NCBI GenBank assembly: GCA_035628995.1
Contig: DASPIR010000023.1
Location: 310,001 to 374,000 of the forward strand
Source: Clostridia bacterium
GTDB taxonomy: Bacteria > Bacillota > Clostridia > Lutisporales > Lutisporaceae
Direction of reading: 5' to 3'
Length of the DNA: 64,000 bases
In this document: one piece after another, positions 4,258-58,178 of the stretch
Position numbering within the stretch: the first letter of the stretch is position 1
Layout: every line of letters starts with the position of its first letter
The notes under the pieces: generated by a model
The model's input: only the letters and a program-made list of their open reading frames with translations
Told to the model about the DNA's origin: nothing
Database searches by the model: none
Made by a program: the position numbers and the translations under genes

Positions 4258-6066
4258 TTACACATCGTCGTAGGAACCCATTTTTATCTCAGCATTCGCT
4301 CTATAGAACGAAACAAATTTTATTGAGTCTTTAATATACATCATGCTACTTCCGATTATTATCCTGCTGCCAGGGTAAATTATGTCATAAACCTTTATCT
4401 TGCCTCTTGAAAGCTCCTCAAAATAAACTTCGAGTTCATTCTGTTCACAAAGGATCTTTTCAAGCTTCTGCTGGAGCTGCAGCTTCAACTGAACAGACTT
4501 TGCCAAAAGGAGCTTCTTATCAAGAGGCAGCTCTGTATTCTTGCTCATCTTTGTAAGAAGATCAACTGCTTTGGTTGTCTTATCCAAATTTTCAGCAATC
4601 TGCTTTGTCTCGGTCTTTATCTCCTCATATTTCTTTCTCATGTCAGGATTAATGCCAACCTCCAGCTCAGTTATGGTGGCCATCGGAGACCCTATAACCT
4701 TTGCTTTGATCTCTTCTCCTACCTTAAAGGTACCTCCAACCAGCAGGCCTTTCCTGCCGTTTGATTCCAGCTTTCTTCCACAAATAATCTGGCTGTGCAT
4801 TATTGCATCACTCTGTATATTTCCCTTAACTTCAACCTTACAGTTTTCCATGAACTTTGCAATGAGATCTCCTTCGCAGAAAAGCTCTCCCTTGTTCATT
4901 CCCTGTATGCCTCTATGGAGTATTATGTTGCCGTTAGATTTTATAAGCGCTCCTTCTACGACTCCATATACTTCAACATCCCCTTCAGCCTCAATTACAA
5001 AGCCTGTGAGTACATTGCCCATTACGACAACCTTGCCATTAAACCTTATATTCCCTGTAGAATTATCTACATTATGTTTTACTTCATATACCGAGAATAC
5101 GTTTACTTTTCCATCCAGAACTTTAACCTCGCCATCGACTGTAGCGGTGAGCTCGAGTCCATCTTTACTTACTTCAACATTCTTTCCTCTCGGTAATACA
5201 AGCTTCCGTCCGTCTTTGCCTGCAACCTCGACACCTTTTACATTTTTACCCGGTATTCCCGCTGTCTGCGGCGTCAAGGTTACCAGCTTCTGTCCAATCT
5301 TTACATTTTTTATTAAAGATAATTCATGATAGTCAATCTTTCCGTCCTTGTCGATATTAATTGATCTTTCGCTTGACATGTCAAAATAATATGAAAGTAC
5401 TGCATCCTGCCCCGCATAAGGTACAATACCTTCTGCTATAAGTATTTCTCTGTCATATGCTTTTAAAGCAACTGCGTTCTTTATTTCACTGTCCTTTATA
5501 TTAAATACAACACCATTAAGCTTAAGTGCTTCGTATATTGCTTTCTCTGTTATTTCCGCTCCCCCAATAGGCTTGGTTAAAGTAATAAAAGCCTGCATGT
5601 TGTCATTTGACAGCTTGACTAAGCATTCACTGTCTATCATTCTCTGATTTTGGGGTTCAGCTATCTTTATCCAGCTATCATGACCTCCGACTTCTACTGA
5701 CTGTTTGATTTTAGTCAAGTCTACACTCTGAATTCTGCGCAGGTCAATTTTAGTTACAATGTCTACCATCGTAACTCCCGATTCTATTTTAATATATACT
5801 CCATCTTCTCTGAACTCAAAATCAATATGCTTGTCCTTCGCCTTTTGACTCTCATTAAGGATGTTGTCAATACTATTCTCGATAACCGCAAGAGTCTTCT
5901 GCTCTCCTAACGAAAACTTGATTTTATAGTATGAGGAAAATAGATTTTTCTTGCTTTCGAGCACTTCGATATGAAGCTCAGCTTTGTTAACTTTAAGGCG
6001 TTGCATACCTTCTGCTATTAACTTGTCATAATCCTTACCCTCAAGAATAATATACTCATTCCCCAT
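4258..6066 (-). CDS. fapA: FapA / DUF342 family protein
   Basis: 602 aa. N-terminal Jag-N/KOW-like region (about 1-60), then the long DUF342/FapA core rich in short beta-strand repeats (a polar bactofilin-like helix pattern such as GNVLTGFVIEAEGDVEVYGVV around 345-365), then a coiled coil (about 475-550) and a small C-terminal beta domain. In Vibrio, FapA is a polar factor for flagellar assembly; in clostridial flagellar operons its job is not established. It lies 15 bases after sigD, in the operon. Confidence 0.8.
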   Translation of the reverse strand: MGNEYIILEGKDYDKLIAEGMQRLKVNKAELHIEVLESKKNLFSSYYKIKFSLGEQKTLAVIENSIDNILNESQKAKDKHIDFEFREDGVYIKIESGVTMVDIVTKIDLRRIQSVDLTKIKQSVEVGGHDSWIKIAEPQNQRMIDSECLVKLSNDNMQAFITLTKPIGGAEITEKAIYEALKLNGVVFNIKDSEIKNAVALKAYDREILIAEGIVPYAGQDAVLSYYFDMSSERSINIDKDGKIDYHELSLIKNVKIGQKLVTLTPQTAGIPGKNVKGVEVAGKDGRKLVLPRGKNVEVSKDGLELTATVDGEVKVLDGKVNVFSVYEVKHNVDNSTGNIRFNGKVVVMGNVLTGFVIEAEGDVEVYGVVEGALIKSNGNIILHRGIQGMNKGELFCEGDLIAKFMENCKVEVKGNIQSDAIMHSQIICGRKLESNGRKGLLVGGTFKVGEEIKAKVIGSPMATITELEVGINPDMRKKYEEIKTETKQIAENLDKTTKAVDLLTKMSKNTELPLDKKLLLAKSVQLKLQLQQKLEKILCEQNELEVYFEELSRGKIKVYDIIYPGSRIIIGSSMMYIKDSIKFVSFYRANAEIKMGSYDDV

Positions 6067-44607: not shown

Positions 44608-44722
44608 ACAATCCCCTTTTCAATAATGCTTTAATATGCCTGAATAAGCAAGTCTTGGATACAATTTTGTTACATTCTTCATTGAATTGTTACACTATGA
44701 TAACAACTTTGTAACATTGATT

Positions 44723-44812
44723 TGATATAATAATATCAGCAAGGATGACAAAGGAAATTAATTCTTCCCCCTCCTATTTATAACCGGTAGCTTTTCACTA
44801 CCGGTTTTTAAT
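44723..44812 (+). ncRNA. Candidate small RNA between dprA and the DUF1232 gene
   Basis: On the plus strand, an extended -10 (TGATATAAT, 44723-44731) precedes a predicted transcript of about 75 bases (about 44738 to 44812) ending in a perfect 9-bp hairpin (44782-44790 / 44798-44806) plus TTTTT. It contains a C-rich run TTCTTCCCCCTCC complementary to Shine-Dalgarno sites and a 12-codon frame (44745-44783). Neither neighbour gene points this way. The alternative is that the hairpin is a weak terminator for the minus-strand DUF1232 gene. The rest of the 210-base gap has scattered GTTAC/GTAAC repeats. Confidence 0.4.
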
Positions 44813-56933: not shown

Positions 56934-58178
56934 TTATTTTATTTTCAAATACTTTTCTGGCACTGGTGTGTTTGTTGATCCAGTATAACCCTTTCCAAAA
57001 ACGTAAGTGTCTTCAAGAACAAGCAAGTAATTCTTCATAACTTCGCCAGTCTTTACATCTGCATAGTTTGTAGTAATCCAGTTTCCGCCTGGTGTAAGAG
57101 TATTAAACGCTTCTATAACAGCCTTTGTATCATCTATCTTTGCTTTGCCGTCTATAACGTTTTTAGCAAATTCGCCAAGTGCTGCGGAATTACAATAGCT
57201 GAATGAGAAAGGAGCTACTGGAATTCTTCCTGATCCGCCCTTTGCTACAACAGCTTCTTCAATTTTCTTTGTGATTGCCGGGAAATCTCCTGCAACATCT
57301 TTAAGGTCAAGACTAAGTGCTGCTGGGAAACCTATCAAAGGAGTTGGTGTATCATTCTCACCATAGATAGCTCCGTTGTCTATTACCTGCTTAATCAATG
57401 GCTCTGAAAGTCCATCATTAGTTGTAAAGAAAGCTGAATCCTTGCCATACTTTGCAATAAGTGCAGGCATCATCTGAAGCAACTGAGCCTGAGCACCTGC
57501 AAGACCTATATCAGTAGCTGGGTCTGGAGCTGTTTCGAAAGCAAATGCTATGCCTAAATCTTTACAAGCTTCTTCCATTATTGCTCTTCTTCTTGCAAGA
57601 AGTTCAATACTCATATGACGTGGGAAGGAAATGTGAACAAAAGTCTTGGCTCCCATATCCTTAGCATTCTTAACCATGTAATAACCACGGGATATGTTAT
57701 CAACGTCAGAAATTAAATCTGCAGCTTTTGAAATAACATTCGGGTCTTCCTGTGGCATGCCAACTAACAATAAAATGTCAGGTCTTTTTTCTCTTATCTG
57801 CTGGAAAGCAGGAGCTGTTCCGCCAACGCCCTGGTTAACTACTATTGCCTTCATATCTGGGTCGTCAGCAAGACCTGCAATAACTGATATTGTAGTTTCA
57901 AGCTCTGATGCGAAGTTGTCCGGATATGTAACATGCTTTATCATACCGCCATCTTTTACATCGCCATACTTTTTAATAAGATATTCTGCACCTCTGGCTT
58001 CATCTTCAGCCTGTGAATATGTACCAGTAACAATACCTATGTGGTACTTCTGTGCTTCAGGTGCTGCTGCTGCTGGAGCCGCTGCTGCAGGTGCTGCTGC
58101 TTGCTCTGCTGGCTTAGCGCATGCTACAAGACTAAAAATAGTAACAAGTGCTAAAACTAAAGCTAATATTCTTTTCAT
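56934..58178 (-). CDS. DUF3798 binding lipoprotein
   Basis: 414 aa. Signal peptide with lipobox FSLVAC (Cys at about 20), an Ala/Pro spacer (EQAAAPAAAAPAAAAPEAQ), then a DUF3798 domain: YHIGIVTGTYSQAEDEARGA, IVVNQGVGGTAPAFQQIREK, KTFVHISFPRHMSIELLARR. The fold resembles BMP-type (nucleoside-binding) lipoproteins, but the ligand is unknown. ATG at 58178 follows GGAGGGG. First gene of the transporter operon; a 21-base palindrome is in its leader. Confidence 0.87.
   Translation of the reverse strand: MKRILALVLALVTIFSLVACAKPAEQAAAPAAAAPAAAAPEAQKYHIGIVTGTYSQAEDEARGAEYLIKKYGDVKDGGMIKHVTYPDNFASELETTISVIAGLADDPDMKAIVVNQGVGGTAPAFQQIREKRPDILLLVGMPQEDPNVISKAADLISDVDNISRGYYMVKNAKDMGAKTFVHISFPRHMSIELLARRRAIMEEACKDLGIAFAFETAPDPATDIGLAGAQAQLLQMMPALIAKYGKDSAFFTTNDGLSEPLIKQVIDNGAIYGENDTPTPLIGFPAALSLDLKDVAGDFPAITKKIEEAVVAKGGSGRIPVAPFSFSYCNSAALGEFAKNVIDGKAKIDDTKAVIEAFNTLTPGGNWITTNYADVKTGEVMKNYLLVLEDTYVFGKGYTGSTNTPVPEKYLKIK

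Follow-up and report, generated by a model that had tools for sequence, protein, structure and literature searches.

A conserved C-rich small-RNA gene predicted beside dprA in a clostridium of the Lutispora family, and a second gene of the same build

The gap between dprA and a DUF1232 gene in a clostridial genome of the Lutispora family appears to hold a real, conserved small-RNA gene, here named sRNA1, and a further gene built in the same way, sRNA2, is present at another place in the genome. The limits of the gene, its conservation, its promoter array and terminator, and the existence of the second gene are read directly from the DNA, and transcription and a base-pairing mechanism are what we infer for both. 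The two genes probably encode C-rich antisense RNAs that are activated by a response regulator and occlude Shine-Dalgarno (SD) sequences. With its own promoter and terminator, its conservation and its lack of a conserved reading frame, sRNA1 has the attributes of a bacterial intergenic trans-acting small RNA.

Within the window (the whole 64-kb stretch of DNA that was analysed), sRNA1 occupies the plus strand at 44658-44810, from promoter array to terminator, and is flanked by two minus-strand genes, dprA (PF02481; 43519..44607), which is transcribed away from it, and the DUF1232 gene (PF06803; 44818..45255), which is convergent with it. A preliminary description had proposed a plus-strand small RNA here, in surroundings where every gene is on the minus strand, and the strand count agrees: all 53 non-overlapping open reading frames (ORFs) of at least 150 aa, overlaps being resolved by keeping the longest first, lie on the minus strand. 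The elements that it named are likewise in place, namely the extended -10 TGATATAAT (44723..44731, plus strand), which has no -35; the C-rich seed TTCTTCCCCCTCC (44762..44774, plus strand), which complements ribosome sites of the AGGAGG or GGGGGAAG type, the C-rich segment of the RNA reading CTTCCCCCTCCTAT; and the intrinsic terminator (44782..44806, plus strand), with a perfect 9-bp stem and a 7-nt loop, directly followed by the T-rich stretch TTTAATTTGC (TTTAATT). A terminator is thus present, and only its placement "75 bases on" was loose, as the stem is reached after 59 nt, counted from the first base of the extended -10. The predicted transcript (44738..44810, plus strand) is about 73 nt long, its start being an estimate set 7 nt past the -10.

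Taken singly, these signals do not exceed chance, but their combination does. In a 3-kb region, one terminator-like site was counted against a shuffle mean of 2.0, and a promoter scan did not list the sRNA1 promoter because its -35 is absent (the best match has 2 of 6 positions). Among the nine TGNTATAAT sites of the window, that of sRNA1 is alone in having a perfect stem of 8 bp or more with a T tract in the next 150 nt, and such a combination of -10 and terminator arose in none of 60 first-order Markov simulations. The decisive evidence is conservation.

A DNA search of 61 genomes gave strong matches to the sRNA1 block in G002, G003, G004 and G005, four of the five other genomes of the genus, and in G008, from one further genus of the same family. 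sRNA1 was not found in G001, which is 71% complete, and its absence says little because dprA was not found there either. At a loose cut-off every one of the 61 genomes gave some match, the best outside the carriers being in G038 (E 1.1e-5, around the -10), without C-run or hairpin. A covariance model of the sRNA1 transcript, R1, detected the gene in 6 of the 22 genomes of the family, with E-values no higher than 1.4e-11. In the alignment of the six copies the stretch between the first promoter hexamer and the -10 has no gap or indel, TGNTATAAT and the hairpin are kept in 6/6, as the check on relatives proposed in the preliminary description had asked, and the C-run is near-invariant, with a single change, in G002. 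Identity to the window copy reaches 86% in G002, 86% in G004, 81% in G005 and 74% in G008, whereas four-fold degenerate sites of dprA in the same pairs reach 37%, 38%, 39% and 28%; constraint on the block is therefore far above that on dprA silent sites (for G003, 87% by BLAST, there is no dprA for comparison). Changes in the stem include one T-A to C-G exchange, and the one-sided changes (A-U to G-U, C-G to U-G) leave the helix paired on the plus strand only. With six sequences, the helix does not rise above shuffles in either covariation (77/500 as high) or paired cells (158/500 as high). Promoter, C-run and terminator, kept in six genomes including that of the window, together with this excess of constraint and the strand-specific pairing, all speak for the plus-strand small RNA originally proposed, as does the strong covariation of the second gene described below.

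The dprA gene was found in 15 of the 22 family genomes. Five of these loci carry sRNA1 (window, G002, G004, G005, G008), two lie at contig edges (L206, L209) and eight belong to other genera. At two of the eight, a possible divergent sRNA1 occupies the same place: in G006 (L207:1181-1260, minus strand), a TTTCCCCTCC run is followed by CCGGCAGCTGCCGG and seven T (R1 24.7 bits, E 0.010; fold z-score -2.6), and in G009 (L204:791-874, minus strand), CTTTCTCTCCTA is followed by a hairpin (R1 27.2 bits, E 0.0032). With filters off, R1 gave nothing better than E 1.5 beyond these two at the eight loci. Both are possible divergent versions, both weak, and they are not counted as members owing to their scores and because the promoter array was not seen before them. 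R1 produced 12 matches beyond the six orthologues; among the nine inspected (L036-L042, L045, L047), L047 is sRNA2, and L041, directly upstream of dprA in G009, is kept as a possible divergent sRNA1. Separately, dprA and sRNA1 are set apart in G005 (L197) by some 370 additional bases containing repeats like CACTAGATGCTAGTCGCTAGT, possibly a small mobile element.

Five putative operator hexamers with the consensus RWWACA, given here on the plus strand, precede the -10. Half-site 1, GATACA (44658..44663), is identical and in the same place in 6/6 sequences; each of the others is kept in 5/6, half-site 2 being GTTACA (44669..44674; TTTACA in G005), half-site 3 GTTACA (44689..44694, TGTAAC on the minus strand; GTCATA in G008), half-site 4 ATAACA (44700..44705, minus TGTTAT; ATAACG in G008) and half-site 5 GTAACA (44711..44716, minus TGTTAC; GTAATA in G003), so that 26 of the 30 half-site cells are identical. 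The hexamer starts are spaced 11, 20, 11 and 11 bp apart, and the fifth ends 9 bp before TATAAT. On the minus strand, half-sites 5 to 3 read TGTTAC-N5-TGTTAT-N5-TGTAAC, which fits the WalR consensus TGTWAH-N5-TGTWAH, whereas half-site 1 departs from the WalR hexamer; half-site 3 belongs to an exact TGTWAY-N5 triple, found at three places in the genome. In its layout the array looks like sites of OmpR-family response regulators.

The second gene came to light as an additional, weak R1 match in the window's genome (C34:77689-77793, E 0.8), the only genome in which R1 sees it. sRNA2 (L078:5540-5840, equal to C34:77539-77839) carries the C-rich TATTCCTCCCCCTCATT and has a TATAAT, the element ATGCTAATACTCTTTATTCCTCCCCCTCATT, which reads GTGCTAATACTC in the majority of relatives, and a long hairpin; exact TTCYTCCCCCTC occurs at only two places in the genome, sRNA1 and sRNA2. 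Searching at the DNA level recovered sRNA2 from many genomes of the family. A model built from sRNA2, R2, detected the gene in 18 of the family's 22 genomes, with E-values of 4.3e-14 or lower, and did not find it in G005, G009, G010 and G015; the sRNA2 type is present in six of the seven sampled genera of the family. Among the named genomes that carry it are those of Lutispora thermophila DSM 19022 and L. saccharofermentans; the NCBI taxonomy places the genus Lutispora in Lutisporaceae, Lutisporales, Clostridia. A pattern scan of named genomes returned 22 stretches, 15 of them with both box and -10; among the remainder, L109 and L118 are cut by contig ends and L099, L106, L108, L113 and L119 are chance matches. 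One sequence, JAJGRE010000001.1 (L102), is labelled Calditrichales bacterium MX18-03 and carries a Lutispora-family sRNA, and this organism label looks wrong. Of six R2 matches inspected (L158, L159, L160, L165, L166, L169), only L160, a strong match at a contig end of G018, proved to be sRNA2. When 291 genomes, those of the family among them, were searched with a model under stricter filters, weak matches appeared in 15 that do not belong to the family; in the eight inspected by eye (L170-L177), none had a -10, a C-run and a terminator together, L171 having TTTATTCCCCCTTGATTT and L172 TTTATTCCTCTTCTCC.

The sRNA2 hairpin shows two-sided changes at 8 of its 11 pairs, with 98.4% of cells paired across 17 distinct sequences, and its covariation score of 0.547 against 0.258 in shuffles was equalled in 0 of 500; further pair types are fewer than in shuffles (12 vs 14.9). 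On these alignments, sRNA2 makes a stronger case than sRNA1 for a structured RNA. Its promoter has a TGTAAA-N5-TGTAAC box whose distance from TATAAT is 39 bp in all but one of the 25 rows and 40 bp in the remaining one, the intervening sequence varying, and TGTWAH-N5-TGTWAH is present in all 25 rows with a readable promoter (the rows include repeated records and represent 17 distinct transcripts). A role as the leader of a HAD gene was rejected. A HAD-like gene lies downstream on the same strand in 4/4 rows of the window's genus and in 0/12 elsewhere, where the first downstream ORF is on the opposite strand in 12/12 rows (one pair of rows being the same locus), and sRNA2 is therefore not a leader. 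Evidence against a peptide comes from indels between GTG and the C-run in G008, G007 and L115, which, judged by eye, break the frame. A conserved 5' block (L080:1680-1691; alignment A7 columns 30-45) reads GTGCTAATACTC in most relatives and ATGCTAATACTC here; its GTGCTAA resembles what we take to be half of the CIRCE element, and in Lutispora the block is predicted to form a 5' hairpin with AAGGATTATTGGTA.

R2, trained on sRNA2 only, also finds sRNA1 in three of the six sRNA1 genomes (G004 at 1.2e-6, G003 at 1.6e-5, the window at 7e-4) and misses it in G002, G005 and G008. Common descent of the two genes is likely on this sequence evidence, although the C-run, -10 and hairpin that they share could be convergent.

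The C-rich segment was proposed at the outset to pair with ribosome sites. In predicted folds, the probability of being unpaired is 0.68-1.0 over the C-run of sRNA2 (17 sequences) and, more weakly, 0.41-0.94 over that of sRNA1 (six sequences). Against the SD segments of 61 window ORFs, whose start codons were selected by fit to the anti-SD, the sRNA1 core has a median pairing energy of -11.5 kcal/mol, about twice the -5.8 of random 33-mers; the base-shuffled core is nearly as strong, with a median of -10.0, and the energy therefore mostly reflects C content and is no proof of design. An anti-SD role of the C-run fits these predictions. The best of the 61 ORFs, at -23.2 kcal/mol with sRNA1, is a DUF3798 lipoprotein gene (56934-58178, minus strand) with the G-rich SD GTGGAGGGGAAAGA and an ABC-type ATPase gene next downstream. 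A Bmp/PnrA-like lipoprotein gene (C29, L028:3073-4250) reaches -20.0 and has an SD, TAAGGGGGAAGA, complementary to sRNA1, and its promoter carries a triple TGTAAT/TGTAAC hexamer array. Our guess is that substrate-binding lipoproteins (Bmp at C29, DUF3798 at window 58178) are among the targets. A pattern search of the genome gave 44 places; of the 28 one-mismatch places with loci, nine lie before an ORF, with PlsC-like, Wzz-like and MotB-like genes (named by eye) represented, and selection by resemblance makes this set biased.

Control of both genes by an OmpR-family response regulator is likely, judging from their promoters. Genome-wide, TGTWAH-N5-TGTWAC occurs 12 times, against 7 in a reversed control, and the matches include sRNA1, sRNA2 and the Bmp-type lipoprotein gene, an NlpC/P60 peptidoglycan hydrolase gene with three overlapping matches, an intergenic region between murA-like and wecG-like genes (the latter named by eye) and a site before an exported protein gene; others lie in coding DNA, before an HPr-like gene and beside an apparent tRNA. 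Before sRNA1, WalR-type pairs on the minus strand number two, overlapping, in the window, G002, G004 and G005, and one in G003, with no full pair in G008. The motif is oriented oppositely at sRNA1 and sRNA2. The consensus itself, TGTWAH-N5-TGTWAH, is that of Bacillus subtilis as quoted for Clostridioides difficile (PMC9210968), and both the sRNA2 box and the three -10-proximal half-sites of sRNA1, on the minus strand, fit this loose form. The best WalR candidate among response regulators reaches 339.3 bits where the cut-off is 340; the kinase beside it has HAMP and PAS domains and a Cache_WalK match of 28.2 bits, and the operon of this WalK-like kinase holds TGTAAT-N5-TGTAAT. The pst operon, beside a PhoP-like regulator, has PhoP-type TTAACA-N5-TTAACA sites (TGTTAA on the other strand), unlike the sRNA sites, but these too satisfy TGTWAH. 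The pst boxes form two clusters (L138:4123-4150 and 5216-5232), of which one precedes pstS and the other stands between pstS and the gene after it. Conservation of the NlpC/P60 boxes is poor: of 16 upstream regions examined, they appear in three, those of the window genome, G008 and G019. The regions derive from 17 matches after removal of the partial L193; L190 offers just 16 nt of upstream sequence, and for some of the ORFs the start is uncertain. WalR is thus a lead to which we give somewhat less than an even chance. No WalR-driven small RNA appeared among the titles and abstract openings covered by the literature search.

In the reading that we favour, an OmpR-family response regulator would bind the hexamer array, mostly at 11-bp spacing, and recruit RNA polymerase to the extended -10 in spite of the missing -35. 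The resulting RNA would carry a C-rich, largely single-stranded segment ahead of the terminator hairpin, and this segment would pair with purine-rich SD sequences and block translation of a subset of mRNAs. sRNA2, with the same build and more widespread in the family, would probably act on overlapping targets.

The competing account that deserves most weight also assumes a stand-alone RNA, acting mainly through protein or ribosome binding, as a mimic of the 16S anti-SD or as a decoy, and not as an antisense RNA. The sRNA sequence CCUCCUAU nearly equals CCUCCUUU, which we take to be the 16S anti-SD, and both the hardly specific pairing energy relative to the shuffled core and the purely predicted nature of the targets suit such a role. 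Against it, sRNA1 and sRNA2 differ just at their anti-SD-like end (CCTCCTAT vs CCCTCATT) while keeping the C-run, and the Gram-positive C-rich sRNAs named in PMC4132741 and PMC8079631 are presented there as acting by pairing; this account is a minority possibility, well behind antisense action. More remote is the view that the hairpin does no more than end the minus-strand DUF1232 mRNA, as in one of the refutations that the preliminary description had named for itself, and that the plus-strand promoter is fortuitous. The DUF1232 gene does end 12 nt from the stem and the hairpin is symmetric, but the T run is confined to the plus side, the one-sided stem changes would break pairing on the minus strand, conservation extends to the promoter array, and in G005 and G008, two genomes of the six, promoter, C-run and hairpin are retained at a place where no DUF1232 gene is seen. 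These observations disfavour it strongly.

An equally improbable view makes the block a minus-strand promoter or operator of dprA, with the C-run as a ribosome site or leader element there. The minus strand does read AGGAGGGGGAAG, and the TGTWAY repeats face dprA; the invariant -10, though, sits on the plus strand, conservation breaks off where the array faces dprA, the distance between C-run and dprA start is 159-531 nt across the five genomes measured, and, judged by eye, any minus-strand frame across the block would be shifted by small indels present in the copies of the window, G005 and G008. Least credible is a coding role. The 12-codon ATG frame pointed out earlier (44745-44783, plus strand; peptide MTKEINSSPSYL) exists and is open in the window, but its start codon is missing in 5/5 orthologues and the comparable frame of sRNA2 is broken by the indels mentioned above, which makes a micropeptide extremely unlikely.

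Comparison with known RNAs points to resemblance in working. A cmscan of the window against the 4227 families of Rfam 15 gave no match at gathering score; at a relaxed E-value the best match of sRNA1 was RsaOG (21.5 bits, gathering 50) and that of the sRNA2 of the window's genome was rimP (23.2 bits, gathering 47), and no description of either RNA was found in Rfam or among the literature matches listed. In Listeria monocytogenes, the LhrC family (LhrC1-5, Rli22, Rli33-1) is portrayed as a multicopy set of short RNAs, several of them induced by a two-component system and LhrC itself controlled by LisRK, whose single-stranded, CU-rich UCCC motif blocks the SD of surface-protein mRNAs and which represses a substrate-binding protein as well as surface proteins (PMC4132741, PMC8079631). 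The present genome similarly has two genes of the same build with a C-rich motif complementary to the SD, single-stranded in sRNA2 and less so in sRNA1. It differs in belonging to another bacterial order, in having one C-rich site where LhrC has three, in the lack of an Rfam match and in that control by a response regulator is here only presumed. By analogy, sRNA1 and sRNA2 would most resemble LhrC in working and not in descent. The csRNAs of the streptococcal CiaRH regulon are described as short RNAs with an unpaired stretch complementary to the SD and a terminator, expressed from promoters with TTTAAG-N5-TTTAAG ten bases before TATAAT (PMC3091779). The N5-spaced repeats of sRNA1 likewise end 9 bp before TATAAT, without a -35, but the hexamers are RWWACA in sRNA1 and TGTAAA/TGTAAC in sRNA2 instead of TTTAAG, the sRNA2 repeat lies 39 bp from the -10, and again no Rfam family matches. 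RsaE/RoxS of Staphylococcus and FsrA of Bacillus, in which a C-rich UCCC motif is reported to pair with mRNA (PMC4132741), share the C-rich motif and differ in the same lack of a match at gathering score.

sRNA1 and sRNA2 thus match no Rfam family and come from a little-studied family of clostridia, and their promoter arrays make their control directly testable. A bolder proposal, which we regard as rather improbable, gives the cell-wall regulator WalR an RNA arm of its own in the Lutispora family, made up of these two genes: WalR would switch on the C-rich RNAs, and they would damp translation of envelope lipoproteins and hydrolases that WalR also controls at the DNA level; if so, the Bmp gene, with its triple WalR-like box and an SD complementary to sRNA1, would form a feed-forward loop. 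If the link to a response regulator is true, the Lutispora family would be the third lineage with a two-component-driven family of C-rich anti-SD RNAs, after LhrC and the csRNAs. We know of no sequence relation between LhrC, the csRNAs and the two RNAs described here, and, given that same link, this would suggest repeated invention of the same circuit.
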